Below the pieces are notes generated by a model, which did not search any database, was not told the DNA's origin, and saw nothing but the letters and a program-made list of their open reading frames with translations. A DNA stretch of 25,664 nucleotides from a virus, in the IMG/VR virus record IMGVR_UViG_3300032116_001185, positions 1 to 25,664 of that record. One strand, written 5' to 3'. Each line of letters opens with the position of its first letter. The stretch's first letter is position 1. Positions 4,715-14,299 of the stretch are shown in pieces. Made by a program: the position numbers and the translations under genes.

Positions 4715-5110
4715 ATGGAATCACTAATTAACCCAAAAACTGGTCAACCCTATGTAAAAAATGTTCGTCGTAAGGTAATAGATAAGCATTATGACTGGGG
4801 TCTTTATGTTTATAAAAAATCTAATGGTAAATGGTTTACTGATGATACTGGTTCAATTTTAAATATTCCCTCAGATCGTGGCGACTTATCTAAGATTGCA
4901 GAACTAAGAAAGGCTGCTATGCATTATGGCGATGATGGAGAAGGCAAGGCAGTTTTTGTTCCTGGACTTACAAGAATTAGTGAAGAAGAATACTCTGAAC
5001 AAAAAGAAAGAATGAGAGAGGGATTGATCCCTTCAATGAATGACTTGGGCGCCTGGCATGCAGCACAACAAACATTAGATAAATATGGAAAGGATGCTGT
5101 AAATGAGTGA
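4715..5110 (+). CDS. Conserved-looking protein of unknown function, portal-adjacent
   Basis: A soluble protein of 131 residues that I do not recognise. It is basic near the N-terminus (KNVRRKVIDKHYDWGLYVYKK), has a short beta-like segment (GKWFTDDTGSILNIP), then a charged helical half rich in Glu, Lys and Arg. It has no membrane segment or signal peptide. ATG 4715 is preferred over ATG 4709 because the promoter box ends at 4707, so an mRNA starting near 4714-4715 would lack the first ATG; neither has a Shine-Dalgarno. The 3' end overlaps the portal start by 8 bases, so the two are likely translationally coupled. Position suggests a head or packaging accessory. It does not resemble a terminase small subunit that I can identify, though that role is not excluded. 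Confidence 0.8.
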   Translation: MESLINPKTGQPYVKNVRRKVIDKHYDWGLYVYKKSNGKWFTDDTGSILNIPSDRGDLSKIAELRKAAMHYGDDGEGKAVFVPGLTRISEEEYSEQKERMREGLIPSMNDLGAWHAAQQTLDKYGKDAVNE

Positions 5111-6710
5111 CGAACAAGAATACATTCGTGTAGGTCTTAATACACAAAATAAGGAAGAAAATCCTTTTAAGCATCAAGATCCATTTAATAAAAGTTGGGA
5201 TGATTTAAAAGACTATGCTGGATTAGATCAAAACTTTCGTCGCAGAACAACTCGTAATCTTTCAAAATATATTAGTCCAGAAACAAACCAAGGATATTTA
5301 AATGCAGCAAATGTTACGCCTTCAGGAGTAGACGCAAGTTCAAAACAAATTAATCCTGGCACGGTATACAGAAATGGTTACGGACTATTTGACGTAATTA
5401 CTCCTCCATACAATATGTATGAGTTAGCCAACTTTTATGACACATCATTTGCTAACCATGCTGCTATTGATGCTAAGGTAGAAAACGTTGTTGGTCTTGG
5501 TTACCGCTTTGATATTTCAGATAGAACTATGCTAAGGTTTGAAATGAATGAAGATCAAGCAGCAGTAGATCGTGCTCGTAATCGGATTGAAAGAGCAAAG
5601 ATACAACTACGTGATTGGCTAGAAAGTTTAAATGATGATGATAGTTTTACAAAAACTATGGAAAAGGTTTACACAGATCTTCAAGCAACTGGCAATGGAT
5701 TTATTGAAGTAGGTAGAACTGTGGCTGGAGATATTGGATATGTTGGACATATTCCAGCAACCACTGTCCGTGTGCGTCGCTTACGTGATGGATTTATTCA
5801 AATTATTGGTCAAAAGGTAGTTTACTTTAGAAACTTTGGAGCAAAAAATCCAAACCCTATGGGCACAGACCCAAGACCAAATGAAATTATTCATCTTAAG
5901 GAATATTCTCCTTTAAATACATTTTATGGTATTCCAGATATTGTTGCAGCAATGCCATCTTTAATTGGAGATCAATTAGCATCCCAATACAATATTGATT
6001 ATTTTGAAAACAAAGCAGTTCCAAGGTATGTGGTAACCCTAAAGGGTGCAAAACTATCTGGTGATGCTGAAGATAAAATGTTTAGATTTTTACAAACAGG
6101 CCTTAAGGCTCAATCACACAGAACTCTCTATATCCCACTTCCTGGAGATAGCGATGGCAACAAGGTTGAGTTTAAGATGGAGCCAATTGAAAATGGTATT
6201 CAGGACGGTTCATTTAAAGAATACCGTAAGCAAAATCGTGATGACATCTTAATTGCCCATCAAGTACCTATCTCAAAATTAGGCGGAGCAGACTCTGCAG
6301 GTACTGCATCAGCACTTGCCCAAGATCGCACATTTAAAGAACAGGTATCTCGTCCAGCACAAAGACATTTAGAAAAAATTGTAAACAAAATTATTAGAGA
6401 AAAGACAGATATTTTAGAACTTAAATTTAATGAGTTGACACTAACTGATGAAATTGCACAGTCTCAAATTCTTGAAAGATATGTAAAAACTCAAGTCATG
6501 ACTCCAAACGAGGCTCGTGAAATGTTAGATTTGCCACAAAGGTCAGATGGCGATAGTCCATTTGTTATGTCTCCAAGGCAGGCAACTGATGCTAGAGCAA
6601 ATTTGGCAGGGAATCGTGAAAGAGATTCAGAAAGAACAAATAACAATTCTGATTCATCAACCACCATTGCTGGCCGTAATCCACAGGGTGAAGGTAGATC
6701 ATCTCAATAG
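5103..6710 (+). CDS. Phage portal protein
   Basis: A 535-residue protein forming the dodecameric ring at the head vertex through which DNA is packaged and ejected. The sequence reads as a PBSX/HK97-type portal: an N-terminal variable arm, then the segment with NHAAIDAKVENVVGLGY, a beta region with IPATTVRVRRLRDGF, the wing/stem region with EIIHLKEYSPLNTFYGIPDI, and the C-terminal motif AHQVPISKLGG (about residues 385-395) followed by the long crown-side helix with DRTFKEQVSRPAQRHLEKI. The tail end is Ser/Asn/Arg-rich and probably disordered. Length fits the family. The start overlaps the preceding gene by 8 bases and has AAAGGA at 5089-5094, a well spaced ribosome site. The prohead protease gene follows after a 40-base promoter gap, the classic head order. 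Confidence 0.93.
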   Translation: MSDEQEYIRVGLNTQNKEENPFKHQDPFNKSWDDLKDYAGLDQNFRRRTTRNLSKYISPETNQGYLNAANVTPSGVDASSKQINPGTVYRNGYGLFDVITPPYNMYELANFYDTSFANHAAIDAKVENVVGLGYRFDISDRTMLRFEMNEDQAAVDRARNRIERAKIQLRDWLESLNDDDSFTKTMEKVYTDLQATGNGFIEVGRTVAGDIGYVGHIPATTVRVRRLRDGFIQIIGQKVVYFRNFGAKNPNPMGTDPRPNEIIHLKEYSPLNTFYGIPDIVAAMPSLIGDQLASQYNIDYFENKAVPRYVVTLKGAKLSGDAEDKMFRFLQTGLKAQSHRTLYIPLPGDSDGNKVEFKMEPIENGIQDGSFKEYRKQNRDDILIAHQVPISKLGGADSAGTASALAQDRTFKEQVSRPAQRHLEKIVNKIIREKTDILELKFNELTLTDEIAQSQILERYVKTQVMTPNEAREMLDLPQRSDGDSPFVMSPRQATDARANLAGNRERDSERTNNNSDSSTTIAGRNPQGEGRSSQ

Positions 6711-6732: not shown

Positions 6733-6741
6733 TGCTATAAT
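6733..6741 (+). promoter_or_regulatory. Extended -10 promoter upstream of the protease gene (leaderless)
   Basis: TGCTATAAT, identical to the box at 1206. The last T is 9 bases before the ATG at 6751, so the transcript would have a leader of about 0-3 bases. TTGAGA at 6711-6716 is a possible weak -35 box, but the 19-base spacing is long. No Shine-Dalgarno lies between the box and the start. It would drive protease, scaffold and major capsid as one unit ending at the terminator at 9302. Confidence 0.6.
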
Positions 6742-6750
6742 TATAACGTT

Positions 6751-8103
6751 ATGTTAACAAACAAGGCTCATTGGGAAACTAAAGGTGACAATGTTCGCCT
6801 TTCAATGCCCATCGGAAAGATAGACGTTGAACGCCGTATGGTGTCTGGCTTTGCTACGCTTGACAATGTTGACCGTCAAGGTGATATTGTAACCACAGAG
6901 TCTAGTATAGAGGCTTTTAAGAATTTCCGTGGCAATCTTCGTGAAATGCACCAGCCAAGCGCTGTAGGTAAAATTGTTTCTTTTAAAGAAGATAAGTATT
7001 TTGATCCAAATGATAAAAAGTTTTATAGCGGAGTCTATGTATCTGCCTATGTTTCCAAAGGCGCACAAGATGCTTGGGAAAAAGTTTTAGATGGAACATA
7101 CACAGGATTTTCTATTGGTGGAAATATCAAAACCTGGGATGATGCTTATGATGCAAAAATTGATAAAACAATTCGTGTAATTAAAAATTATGAATTACAT
7201 GAACTTTCTCTTGTAGACAATCCAGCAAATCAATTTGCAAATATTTTATCTATTGAAAAAGTAAATGGTCAAAATGTTGTTAGTGGTTATTTATCAAAAG
7301 CAGAAATTGAAAATGTGTTTTGGGACTCAGAAAACGGGATTGTTATGGTATCAGAATCTGACTCAGTGGCAAGCCCAGTAACTGGAAACAAAATGCAAAA
7401 TATTGGTTTTATAGAAAAGAATGATAAAGATAATGCAGAAATGATAAAATTCTTAGTTGATAGTGCTAAAGGCATTAATACAATTAAGATTACTAAGGAG
7501 GTAAATCCAATGACAGAATCAACAGAAGCAGTTGTAGAAACTGCAGTTGAAAATGCAGAGGTTGCTCCAGAGGCACAGCCAGCAGAGGTAGTAGCAGAAG
7601 CAACAGAGATTGTTGCAGAAGCAGAAAAAATTGTTGCAGAAGCAACAGAAACCCCTGCAGTCGCTGAAGAAGCACCAGCAGTTGAAGAACTTGCTATTGC
7701 TAAATCAGAAGACGGTAGTGCAGATTCTTCTGTTGCAAAAGCAGCAGTTGAAGTAGAGAATGCAGTGGAAAAATCTATTGCAGATGTTAAAGAAGAAGTT
7801 GCTAAGGCAGTTTCAGAAATTAATACTTCTCTTACTAATGCCTTTGGCGATCTTGCTGCAACTATCAAATCTCTTAACGAGAAGGTAACAGCAGTAACAA
7901 AATCTCTTGATGCAGTAACAGCAGATGTTAACGGTATTAAGAGCAACTTTAACGAGTTTGGCAAGCGAGTAGATCTTGTAGAACAAGACACCGCTTTCCG
8001 CAAGTCTGGCGATCTAGGCGAGATCGTACAGGAATCACCACAAGTGGTTCAAAAATCCCTATGGGGCGGTCGTTTCCTCACAAATGCCGACCTATTTAAC
8101 TAA
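6751..8103 (+). CDS. Prohead protease with C-terminal scaffold domain
   Basis: A 450-residue fusion. Residues 1-170 are an HK97-type prohead serine protease (family S78-like). The pattern VSGFATLDNVDRQGDIVTTES (in two parts, 31-51) is typical; candidate catalytic His67 lies in REMHQPS and Ser121 in TGFSIGG, followed by YELHELSLVDNPAN at 147-160. It would cleave the scaffold and head proteins inside the procapsid. Residues 254-450 are Ala/Glu/Val-rich, very acidic, predicted helical or coiled-coil, with short repeats such as VAEATE, and end in a distinct basic-aromatic segment (SLWGGRFLTNADLF) that could be the capsid-binding tail. The gene seems to start leaderless, since no Shine-Dalgarno precedes ATG 6751. 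An internal in-frame start at 7510 would give scaffold alone. The arrangement parallels lambda C/Nu3. The capsid gene follows 28 bases downstream. Confidence 0.9.
   Translation: MLTNKAHWETKGDNVRLSMPIGKIDVERRMVSGFATLDNVDRQGDIVTTESSIEAFKNFRGNLREMHQPSAVGKIVSFKEDKYFDPNDKKFYSGVYVSAYVSKGAQDAWEKVLDGTYTGFSIGGNIKTWDDAYDAKIDKTIRVIKNYELHELSLVDNPANQFANILSIEKVNGQNVVSGYLSKAEIENVFWDSENGIVMVSESDSVASPVTGNKMQNIGFIEKNDKDNAEMIKFLVDSAKGINTIKITKEVNPMTESTEAVVETAVENAEVAPEAQPAEVVAEATEIVAEAEKIVAEATETPAVAEEAPAVEELAIAKSEDGSADSSVAKAAVEVENAVEKSIADVKEEVAKAVSEINTSLTNAFGDLAATIKSLNEKVTAVTKSLDAVTADVNGIKSNFNEFGKRVDLVEQDTAFRKSGDLGEIVQESPQVVQKSLWGGRFLTNADLFN
7495..7502 (+). promoter_or_regulatory. Internal Shine-Dalgarno for a nested scaffold start
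   Basis: AAGGAGGT, a perfect 8-base anti-16S match, lies inside the protease-scaffold gene, 7 bases before ATG 7510. That ATG is in frame with the enclosing gene (759 bases, 253 codons from 6751). It is among the strongest ribosome sites in the window and falls exactly at the junction between the protease part and the Ala/Glu-rich scaffold part. Confidence 0.85.
7510..8103 (+). CDS. Scaffold protein from a nested in-frame start
   Basis: A 197-residue product predicted from ATG 7510 inside the protease gene, sharing frame and stop with it. It starts MTESTEAVVETAVENAEV and is rich in Ala, Glu and Val, acidic, and almost free of aromatic residues until its end, consistent with an extended helical scaffold that fills the procapsid and is then degraded. 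The last residues (from about SLWGGRF) are the only aromatic/basic cluster and are a likely capsid-binding site, by analogy with other scaffolds. The start is supported by the AAGGAGGT site with ideal spacing, whereas the enclosing gene has no ribosome site. The high-copy scaffold would thus be made in excess of the protease fusion. The nested product itself is an inference; the start signal is seen directly. Confidence 0.75.
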   Translation: MTESTEAVVETAVENAEVAPEAQPAEVVAEATEIVAEAEKIVAEATETPAVAEEAPAVEELAIAKSEDGSADSSVAKAAVEVENAVEKSIADVKEEVAKAVSEINTSLTNAFGDLAATIKSLNEKVTAVTKSLDAVTADVNGIKSNFNEFGKRVDLVEQDTAFRKSGDLGEIVQESPQVVQKSLWGGRFLTNADLFN

Positions 8104-8131
8104 GGTAAAAATCACTAGGAGGTGAAAAATA

Positions 8132-9280
8132 ATGTCGGAACAAAATAAAGACCTAGAAAAAAACTATCCAGGTGCAACCGCAGGCGCTGAAATTAACTCA
8201 GCAGGCTCATTTGTATCAGGTGGTGTAGGTAGTGCAACAGGTTTGGATTCTGCAGGATCATCTGTAGGTTCACAACTTGGTAACACTGCTACTGCAGCAT
8301 TCGGTTCAACAACTGGAGCAAACGCAGTAAACCCAACAGGTGTTGCAGGTGGTATTTTAGCACCAGAGCAAGCACGTCGTTTTATTGACTACGTATGGGA
8401 TGCAACTGTCCTCGCTAAAGATGGCCGTCGTGTCACCATGAGAGCAAACACCATGGAAATTGAGAAGGTAAACGTAGGTGAGCGTGTAATTCGTGCTGCT
8501 GCTCAAGGCGCACCAGATTATACAAACATCGGCGCAACCTTTACAAAAGTTGAATTAACAACCAAAAAGATTCGTCTTGATTGGGAAGTATCAACTGAAG
8601 CACTTGAAGACAATATTGAAGGTGGAGCACTTGAAGATCATTTAGTTCGCTTGATGACCAATGCTTTCGCAAATGATATTGAAGATCTTGCTATCAACGG
8701 TCTTGGAACAGGCTCAGACGCATTCCTTTCAATTATGGCAGGATTCGTTAAGCAGACCCGTGGAACAGTCGGAAACGATGCACACGAGTATGCAGCAACT
8801 GTTGCAGATAACAACTACACTACATCAGTAATGCAGGGCTTGCTTCTAGCAATGCCACGCAAGTATCGTGCACTTAAGTCAAACCTTAAGTTCTACGCAG
8901 GTACTGATGCATTTGCTGGTATCGTTCGTAACAACGGTACACTTGCAGACGCCATCTCATCAGCATTCGCTGATCGTGTTGGTAGCACACAAGCAAATCG
9001 TCAAGAATTCCTTGATGGTGGAGCACAGACACTAGGTAATGCACGTACAACTCGTGTACTTGGTGTAGATGTTCTTGAGGTTCCTTACTACCCTGCAGGT
9101 TATGTTGATTTAACATTCCCTCAGAACCGTGTATGGGGCTTCCAGAGAGACATCACTGTAAACCGTGAATACAAGCCAAAGAAAGACACAATTGAATACA
9201 CAGTATTCGTACGCTTTGGTATCCAATGGGAAGAACTAGATGCAGTCGCATATGTTGACTCAGATAGCGCTGATTCCTAA
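8132..9280 (+). CDS. Major capsid protein, HK97 fold
   Basis: A 382-residue protein that assembles the icosahedral shell. After a Gly/Ser/Ala/Thr-rich N-terminal arm (residues 1 to about 75), the HK97-like body begins at ILAPEQARRFIDYVWDA. It continues through the E-loop-like stretch, the spine helix region with EALEDNIEGGALEDHLVRLM, the segment AFANDIEDLAINGLGTG, a P-domain with SVMQGLLLAMPRKYRALKSN, and a C-terminal beta segment (EYTVFVRFGIQWEELDAVAYV). The ribosome site AGGAGGTGA (8117-8125) is among the best in the window. Base and codon use are visibly less AT-biased than in the LamG and tail-hub genes, as expected for the most abundant virion protein. The gene closes a promoter-protease/scaffold-capsid-terminator unit. 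The N-terminal arm may be flexible or cleaved; no cleavage site was identified. Confidence 0.93.
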   Translation: MSEQNKDLEKNYPGATAGAEINSAGSFVSGGVGSATGLDSAGSSVGSQLGNTATAAFGSTTGANAVNPTGVAGGILAPEQARRFIDYVWDATVLAKDGRRVTMRANTMEIEKVNVGERVIRAAAQGAPDYTNIGATFTKVELTTKKIRLDWEVSTEALEDNIEGGALEDHLVRLMTNAFANDIEDLAINGLGTGSDAFLSIMAGFVKQTRGTVGNDAHEYAATVADNNYTTSVMQGLLLAMPRKYRALKSNLKFYAGTDAFAGIVRNNGTLADAISSAFADRVGSTQANRQEFLDGGAQTLGNARTTRVLGVDVLEVPYYPAGYVDLTFPQNRVWGFQRDITVNREYKPKKDTIEYTVFVRFGIQWEELDAVAYVDSDSADS

Positions 9281-9301
9281 AATATAACAATCACGTACTA
9301 G

Positions 9302-9335
9302 GGAGGGCGGTATAAAAACCGTCCTCCTTATTGTC
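9302..9335 (+). terminator. Intrinsic terminator after the capsid gene
   Basis: A 10-base-pair stem, GGAGGGCGGT (9302-9311) with ACCGTCCTCC (9318-9327), has one G-T pair and a six-base loop ATAAAA, followed by TTATTGTC. The stem is strong, but the T tract is interrupted, so termination may be partial, allowing read-through to the connectors. A new promoter box lies 8 bases beyond the T-rich tail. Confidence 0.75.
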
Positions 9336-9342
9336 ATTCTGG

Positions 9343-9351
9343 TGGTATAAT
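9343..9351 (+). promoter_or_regulatory. Extended -10 promoter for the connector genes
   Basis: TGGTATAAT, a perfect TATAAT with TG extension. The region where a -35 box should lie falls inside the terminator stem and is not TTGACA-like. The predicted leader is about 16 bases and contains AGGAGA (9365-9370) just ahead of ATG 9374. It would drive the tightly coupled connector genes to 12434. Confidence 0.6.
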
Positions 9352-13216: not shown

Positions 13217-13912
13217 ATGGCAACAACCGTTTATCAAAATAAAATAATAAAACTTATTGATGGCACAGAACTAGAGATTATGCCACTAAAAATAAAATAT
13301 CTACGTGAGTTTATGGAAGCATTTGAATATGTTAAAAAAGCCAAAAATGATGATGAGGCCGTAGATTATTTAATAGAATGTGTAAGAATTACAATGAAGC
13401 AATACTATCCAGAAATAATATTAACAAAATCTGATATAGAGGATAGTCTTGATATGCCAACAATATATACAATTTTAGATATTTCGGCGGGAATTAAAAT
13501 AAATGAAAAGTCAAGTCAGACAGTTAAAAACCAAGCAGAGGATAGTGGTGCCACATGGTCAGACTTGGATTTAGCAAAAATTGAGGCTGAGGTATTTCTA
13601 ATAGGTATTTGGAAAGATTACAAAGAGTTAGAAGAATCACTATCTATGCCAGAACTTATGGCAACCCTTTCTAGTCGTAGAGAACTTGACTATGAAGAAA
13701 AAAAGTTTCTTGCTGCAATTCAAGGGGTAGACTTAGATAAACAGTCTGGATCTTCAAGGGGTCAAAAAGAATGGGAAGACATGAAAGCCAGGGTATTTAG
13801 TAAAGGTAAAACAAGTGATAGTAAAGACATATTGGCTCTTCAAGGTCAAAATGCCAAGAGTGCAGGGTTTGGTATTGGCATGGGCTTAGAGTACGAAGAT
13901 TTAACAAAATAA
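13217..13912 (+). CDS. Tail assembly chaperone, long form (GT-like)
   Basis: A 231-residue protein encoded between tail tube and tape measure genes, the position of the tail assembly chaperones that coat the tape measure and recruit tube subunits. Residues 1 to about 98 are clearly homologous to the whole of the next gene product (shared MATT, LIDGT, PLKI, ECV, MKQY-PE, GIK; about two in five residues identical by eye). Residues about 108-231 are an added domain (FLIGIWKDYKELEESLSMPE, LSSRRELDYEEKKFLAAIQG) like the T part of GT fusions. The protein thus looks like GT made without a frameshift. The start follows a leaderless-type promoter with no ribosome site, suggesting low output. The end is Gly/Ser/Lys-rich, then LEYEDLTK. 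Confidence 0.85.
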   Translation: MATTVYQNKIIKLIDGTELEIMPLKIKYLREFMEAFEYVKKAKNDDEAVDYLIECVRITMKQYYPEIILTKSDIEDSLDMPTIYTILDISAGIKINEKSSQTVKNQAEDSGATWSDLDLAKIEAEVFLIGIWKDYKELEESLSMPELMATLSSRRELDYEEKKFLAAIQGVDLDKQSGSSRGQKEWEDMKARVFSKGKTSDSKDILALQGQNAKSAGFGIGMGLEYEDLTK

Positions 13913-13969: not shown

Positions 13970-14299
13970 ATGGCAACAACTACGTATGAGGAAAATACTC
14001 TTACATTGATTGATGGCACAAAGGTTACAGTACGTCCTCTAAAAATCTCTCTACTTCGTCCGTTTATGAAGAAGTTTGAGGGTGTGGGAGCAGTGGCGGA
14101 AGATAACGGGAAATCTATGGACATTCTTATGGAATGTGTACAGATTGCAATGAAACAATACAAGCCAGAACTCTCTGAAGACGTAAAGAAACTAGAGGAG
14201 AATATTGATCTCCCAACTGTTTACAAGATCGTAGAAGCAGCATCAGGTATTAAACTTGCTGAAGTTTCAGACGTTCTTGGCGTAACTATGGCTGAATAA
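13970..14299 (+). CDS. Tail assembly chaperone, short form (G-like)
   Basis: A 109-residue protein homologous along nearly its full length to residues 1-98 of the preceding gene product. Both start MATT and share the LIDGT turn, PLKI, ECV, MKQY-PE and GIK motifs, so they come from a duplication. It lacks the second domain, exactly as lambda G lacks the T part of GT. It would bind the tape measure protein and keep it soluble during tail assembly. The start has AGGAGGAA and its own extended -10 promoter, indicating higher output than the long form. No slippery site joins it to the next frame: it ends TAA 22 bases before the tape measure gene. Order is long then short, the reverse of what a frameshift would imply. 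Confidence 0.85.
   Translation: MATTTYEENTLTLIDGTKVTVRPLKISLLRPFMKKFEGVGAVAEDNGKSMDILMECVQIAMKQYKPELSEDVKKLEENIDLPTVYKIVEAASGIKLAEVSDVLGVTMAE

Follow-up and report, generated by a model that had tools for sequence, protein, structure and literature searches.

We found that the prohead protease gene in the viral DNA analysed here (IMG/VR record IMGVR_UViG_3300032116_001185, 25,664 nucleotides, henceforth referred to as the window) very probably gives rise to two proteins with a common C-terminus, i.e., a protease–scaffold fusion and the scaffold alone, of which the shorter is predicted from sequence. The sequence elements involved, their conservation among relatives and the domain layout of the gene were observed directly. 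The outer open reading frame (ORF; positions 6751–8103, plus strand) encodes a fusion of 450 amino acids and has no Shine-Dalgarno (SD) sequence. Within it and in the same frame, an ATG at 7510 (outer residue 254) opens a nested scaffold ORF of 197 amino acids (7510–8103, plus strand; MTESTEAV...), which ends at the same stop codon and is preceded by the SD sequence AAGGAGGT (7495–7502, plus strand) and the 7-nt spacer AAATCCA. An earlier, sequence-only reading of this DNA had pointed to the ribosome site and the 197-residue ORF, both of which we verified, and had expected ordinary gene calling to miss the nested protein; this is true of the annotated records that we inspected, where the gene is labelled only as a capsid maturation protease or head maturation protease and the nested scaffold is unannotated. 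A literature search, mostly outside subscription papers, returned no report of the nested gene and no transcript maps for these phages.

Given that chance alone would give 0.62 copies of the AAGGAGGT octamer per window, and that at least one copy occurred in 45 out of 100 shuffled windows, the octamer count alone is close to chance level, and it is the position and conservation of the site that carry the argument. Likewise, when each ORF was resampled synonymously, on average 8% of the resamples contained an equally long SD–start pair at some point of the searched 3' region (10% in the case of the window), meaning that no single sequence is decisive.

The outer product matched the PHROG family of head maturation proteases over its whole length (phrog_9427, E-value 5.9e-115) and scored above the curated cut-offs of the S78 Pfam models PF04586 and PF14550 (22.8 bits with a cut-off of 21, and 29 with a cut-off of 24, respectively); by these profile matches, the outer protease is an S78 (HK97/XkdF-type) prohead protease. 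Its protease domain (approximately residues 1–240; 6751–7470, plus strand) was delimited from the Pfam matches, invariant alignment columns, the order in an AlphaFold model and the fold neighbours of that model in BFVD, which were prohead proteases. H67 and S121 were invariant in 59 sequences, and we take them to have catalytic roles, as in S78 proteases. The AlphaFold model (mean pLDDT 67, built on an alignment of the window and IMG loci only) shows an ordered, beta-rich domain up to approximately residue 240, a disordered and acidic stretch at residues 244–334, one long helix at residues 331–418 (7741–8004, plus strand) and a short C-terminal helix. The long helix appears coiled-coil-like, its database matches being to coiled coils only, and sequence and fold searches of the PDB gave no informative match. 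The C-terminus itself, QKSLWGGRFLTNADLFN (8050–8100, plus strand), is conserved, with G440 and F442 invariant and W438 and L443 nearly so, and likely contacts the capsid protein. As the nested start at residue 254 falls in the linker, the nested protein consists of linker, helix and conserved C-terminus, which, judging from this layout, would be the typical architecture of a phage scaffold. The claim of the sequence-only reading that the nested start lies exactly where the protease ends is thus approximately right, with some residues of linker between the last ordered part of the protease and the start.

The gene is placed between the portal protein gene (5103–6710) and the major capsid protein gene (8132–9280, plus strand), the latter being next in the operon and having an SD of its own (AGGAGGTGA, 8117–8125, plus strand). 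The capsid gene product matched phrog_1623 (virion structural protein, E-value 7.9e-72) and phrog_10 (major head protein, E-value 2.2e-9). Just 3' of the capsid gene there is a strong, terminator-like hairpin of 13 pairs (9299–9330), with a TGGTATAAT box after it at 9343. Further downstream, two adjacent genes (13217–13912 and 13970–14299) encode proteins with similar starts (MATTVYQNKIIKLIDGTELEIMPLKI and MATTTYEENTLTLIDGTKVTVRPLKI) and are likely a tandem duplication just before a tape-measure-like gene.

We assessed the conservation of the nested pair in 326 loci (278 distinct ORFs) from freshwater IMG/VR phages, Stanwilliamsviridae phages of Streptomyces and Rhodococcus phages; distant loci were found by a family-alignment search (80 loci), and three further scans brought the set to its total. 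All 278 distinct ORFs had a nested SD (6–10 nt) with an in-frame start codon in their 3' half (ATG in 239, GTG in 38 and TTG in one), and the pair was nearly always found at the protease/scaffold junction despite the divergence of the protein there. Specifically, close relatives (72–96% identity) kept AAGGAGGT, seven bases and ATG in 80 out of 80 cases, and the distant relatives kept an SD and an in-frame start, again in 80 out of 80; in one of the loci (L100) the scoring chose an earlier SD–start pair of equal length, the junction pair being also present. In 12 Stanwilliamsviridae-type Streptomyces phages and two Rhodococcus phages (32–53% identical), the same junction carries GGAGGT(G) or AAGGAG with ATG or GTG after it, although the local peptide differs and the SD is in another codon phase; in the Streptomyces phages the peptide is KGGAEQM or EGGVIV, as opposed to KEVNPM in the window. 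A locus in which the protein was kept while the ribosome site or the ATG was lost would have spoken against the nested gene; none was found among the 326. A chance origin of the SD–start pair was rejected on the grounds of this conservation.

Outside this set, distant relatives from metagenome-assembled genomes (MAGs) that have a protease domain only showed no nested pair at the junction, and in more distant, T5-like S78 phages the protease gene is short and has no scaffold portion. Alicyclobacillus phage MMB025, whose outer start has an SD and whose layout is different, was left out of the counts. Four loci (L112, L149, L151 and L167) carry approximately 75–140 extra residues between the protease domain and the nested start (a Hva1_TUDOR domain, PF11160, in the case of L167) and retain the nested SD and start 3' of the insert. 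One relative was located in a MAG assigned to Actinomycetota and another in a MAG assigned to cyanobacteria, placements which may be binning errors.

We confirmed at ATG 6751 that the enclosing gene has no SD, as the sequence-only reading had stated, and found beside this start a feature that it had overlooked, namely an extended -10 promoter element, TGCTATAAT (6733–6741, plus strand), 9 nt 5' of the outer ATG and conserved in close relatives. All 78 close relatives with upstream sequence have TGNTATAAT 8–10 nt 5' of the outer ATG, with variable sequence farther 5'. Among 276 distinct relatives, 264 have a -10 box (with at most one mismatch) 3–12 nt 5' of the outer start, 230 of them an exact TATAAT, and in only two is that start preceded by an SD of 6 nt or longer; in a control set of major capsid gene starts, a -10 box was found at the same distance in 8 out of 220, none of them exact. 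In the Streptomyces phages a TA---T hexamer lies exactly 6 nt 5' of the outer ATG, which would place the transcription start on the A of AUG. The outer start thus has the two sequence features of leaderless genes (a -10 box near the ATG and no SD), and we attribute the missing SD to the adjoining -10 box: the long form is probably translated from a leaderless or near-leaderless mRNA, as predicted from the position of the box. About one in four mycobacterial transcripts is leaderless, and these are well translated (PMC4633059).

An alternative is that the outer gene is translated by SD-independent initiation on read-through mRNA, at an unstructured and A+T-rich start, and that the TATAAT is incidental. 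The region is indeed A+T-rich and portal genes lie directly upstream, yet we consider this reading unlikely: the box is held at a fixed distance, with an exact TATAAT 8–10 nt 5' of the outer ATG in 45 out of 74 representatives at 90% identity and almost none elsewhere, and the capsid gene starts of the control set lack it. It also sits poorly with the one clear exception (L118, positions 2460–2500), in which TGGTATAAT is kept farther upstream, the leader is longer and AGGAGGT has appeared in it before a TTG start; judging from its sequence, this locus is a natural switch from a leaderless to an SD-led outer start. Further genes with the same -10 placement were found in phage Wakanda and in the window, where TGATATACT ends 7 nt 5' of ATG 4715 and TGATAGAAT ends 9 nt 5' of ATG 13217, both without an SD, so that these two genes look leaderless. 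A Fisher test of SD-led against leaderless starts in Wakanda was discarded, as a -10 box in this position leaves no room for an SD and their exclusion is partly mechanical.

The sequence-only reading was right about the nested SD and start but missed an element directly before them: an RNA hairpin of 39 nt (9 bp and 7 bp; 7451–7489, plus strand) that ends 5 nt 5' of the nested SD and is indicated by fold energy, synonymous constraint and pairing. Its 90-nt surroundings fold at -17 kcal/mol (z-score -2.8, with no shuffle equally stable), and, measured against shuffles, it is the strongest of the local folds in the gene (z-score about -5). Codons at 7450–7489 showed no synonymous change in 42 non-redundant close relatives and were the most constrained stretch of the gene at most scales (scan permutation P = 0.001 for 7 codons and below 1/4000 for 11 and 13 codons); variation within this block is limited to bases 7478 and 7480, both in the internal loop of the hairpin. 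Codon choice points the same way, with AGT used for serine in 86 out of 86 cases (AGT being 13% of serine codons) and TTC for phenylalanine in 86 out of 86 (35%). In the wider clade (42 distinct sequences), 10 of the 11 core pairs were never broken and 91% of all cells paired, compared to at most 52% in slid structures. Covariation was modest, its score being reached by 2 out of 500 shuffles and double changes occurring in one core pair. Taken as a whole, the element is probably real, on comparative sequence grounds, and it may keep the ribosome site open or act as an operator. It was found in the clade of the window, while in other clades its place is taken by a different hairpin or by none; one such clade (L108, L123, L157, L164 and relatives) has a different hairpin before the nested SD (CGUUGCCUG...CAGGCAAACG). 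A search of Rfam at gathering scores returned no match for the hairpin or anywhere in the window. A stem that would sequester the SD (UUCUUAG with CUAAGGA) was rejected, its pairing being lost where ACT became ACA. A second stretch nearly without synonymous change, with similar permutation values, covers the codons at 8041–8098 in the scaffold C-terminus, just 5' of the capsid gene.

The invariant nucleotides could instead be those of an internal promoter (TTGATA at 7457–7462 and TACAAT at 7479–7484, 16 nt apart), from which the scaffold would be expressed on its own mRNA in the manner of herpesvirus UL26.5. This site matches the consensus at 10 of 12 positions with the right distance, and a block without synonymous change is what a promoter would also produce; on the other hand, two close relatives (L007 and L016) have TGCAAT, in which the key A of the -10 hexamer is lost and the hairpin pairing is kept, the wider clade often changes the TACAAT hexamer with the hairpin core unchanged, and the region has 10 promoter-like sites where 7.0 are expected. 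These comparisons make it less likely that the invariant block is due to an internal promoter, and we regard a separate scaffold mRNA as improbable.

Returning to internal initiation on a shared mRNA, we examined the geometry of the nested pair in 131 ORFs, which form 19 clusters at 60% identity and, as loci share descent, represent fewer truly independent events than that. The longest SD-like match in the 3' half was followed by an in-frame start 5–13 nt later in 131 out of 131 ORFs, compared to 7% of random positions, and the spacing was 7, 8 or 10 in 128 of them. The SD occurs in two codon phases (83 vs. 48 ORFs), meaning that selection acts on the nucleotides. A reading of the SD-like sequence as a site of programmed translational pausing between the two domains, with the scaffold released only by cleavage of the fusion, would suit the position of that sequence at the domain boundary but is very improbable, given that a pause requires no start codon and yet a start stands at ribosome spacing in every one of these ORFs, switching only among ATG, GTG and TTG.

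We thus favour two starts in one gene. The long product, an S78-type prohead protease fused to the scaffold, would be made from the SD-less ATG near the -10 box, leaderless initiation yielding few fusions. The short product would be the scaffold alone; strong, SD-led initiation at ATG 7510 within the same gene would yield it abundantly, with many scaffold copies per protease. Under the capsid shell the two products would assemble together, and the protease would cleave them at maturation; in the clade of the window the hairpin 5' of the nested SD would keep the ribosome site open or regulate it. A broader proposal, to which we give slightly less than even weight, is that an actinobacterial phage family sets its protease:scaffold ratio by combining leaderless and SD-led starts, with the cis-acting hairpin as a control element (e.g., a feedback operator for assembly proteins).

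On the two-start reading, a hidden and probably essential capsid-assembly gene, as predicted here, is added to a large group of phages which includes hundreds of freshwater contigs as well as Streptomyces and Rhodococcus phages of teaching collections, and the nested protease/scaffold design recurs with an S78 protease. As Wakanda, Coruscant, EGole and Grayson can be cultivated, leaderless and SD-led initiation in one gene are directly testable.

The comparison with lambda C/Nu3 made by the sequence-only reading holds as an analogy, with an in-frame internal start and a shared stop, but does not extend to membership. Lambda gpC is an S49/ClpP-type protease, whereas Pfam and PHROGs searches of the outer product returned S78 and head maturation protease families only and no S49; the outer protease, being S78, is therefore not in the lambda gpC family. 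The window nevertheless has the features of a nested protease–scaffold layout, i.e., an in-frame internal start, a ribosome site, a shared stop and a scaffold-like C-terminal part. An in-frame internal start in a protease–scaffold gene is common to lambda C/Nu3, Mu I/Z, PaMx73 gene 27 and the window, and in Mu-like phages the scaffold starts within the protease gene (PMC4378225). The window further shares with lambda C/Nu3-type systems the common stop, the internal SD and the position directly before the capsid genes, and differs from lambda C/Nu3 in its SD-less outer start with an adjoining -10 box and in the hairpin before the nested SD. Leaderless outer start and hairpin are both differences from known nested systems, and no description of them was found in the literature searched.

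S78 proteases are probably related to the herpesvirus protease. The herpesvirus genes UL26/UL26.5 are, like those of the window, in-frame nested genes with identical 3' ends, an N-terminal maturation protease and a C-terminal scaffold (PMC4498786). UL26.5, however, has its own coterminal transcript (PMC4498786), whereas in the window the short form would be started at a separate ribosome site of the shared mRNA; the promoter-like site at 7457–7484 is present in the window but not conserved as a promoter among relatives. With S78 prohead proteases of the HK97/T5 type the window shares the Pfam S78 assignment, prohead proteases as fold neighbours and a gene between portal and capsid. In HK97, however, the capsid protein carries the scaffold as its delta domain (PMC8508860), whereas in the window a scaffold-like region is on the protease gene; the major capsid protein of the window has approximately 70 residues before its PHROG match, leaving room for a short N-terminal arm. 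T5-like relatives also differ in having a short protease gene followed by a capsid 'precursor'. Two-product phage endolysins (PMC9430671) resemble the window in making two in-frame products from one gene by an internal ribosome site, although the proteins and their function are unrelated. The closest counterparts are the homologous genes of Stanwilliamsviridae (Wakanda, EGole, Coruscant and others), which differ in local peptide and codon phase, in often having a nested GTG and in an extra gene between portal and protease, but share with the window the gene order, the nested SD and start, and an outer start that lacks an SD and has a -10 hexamer 6 nt 5' of its ATG.
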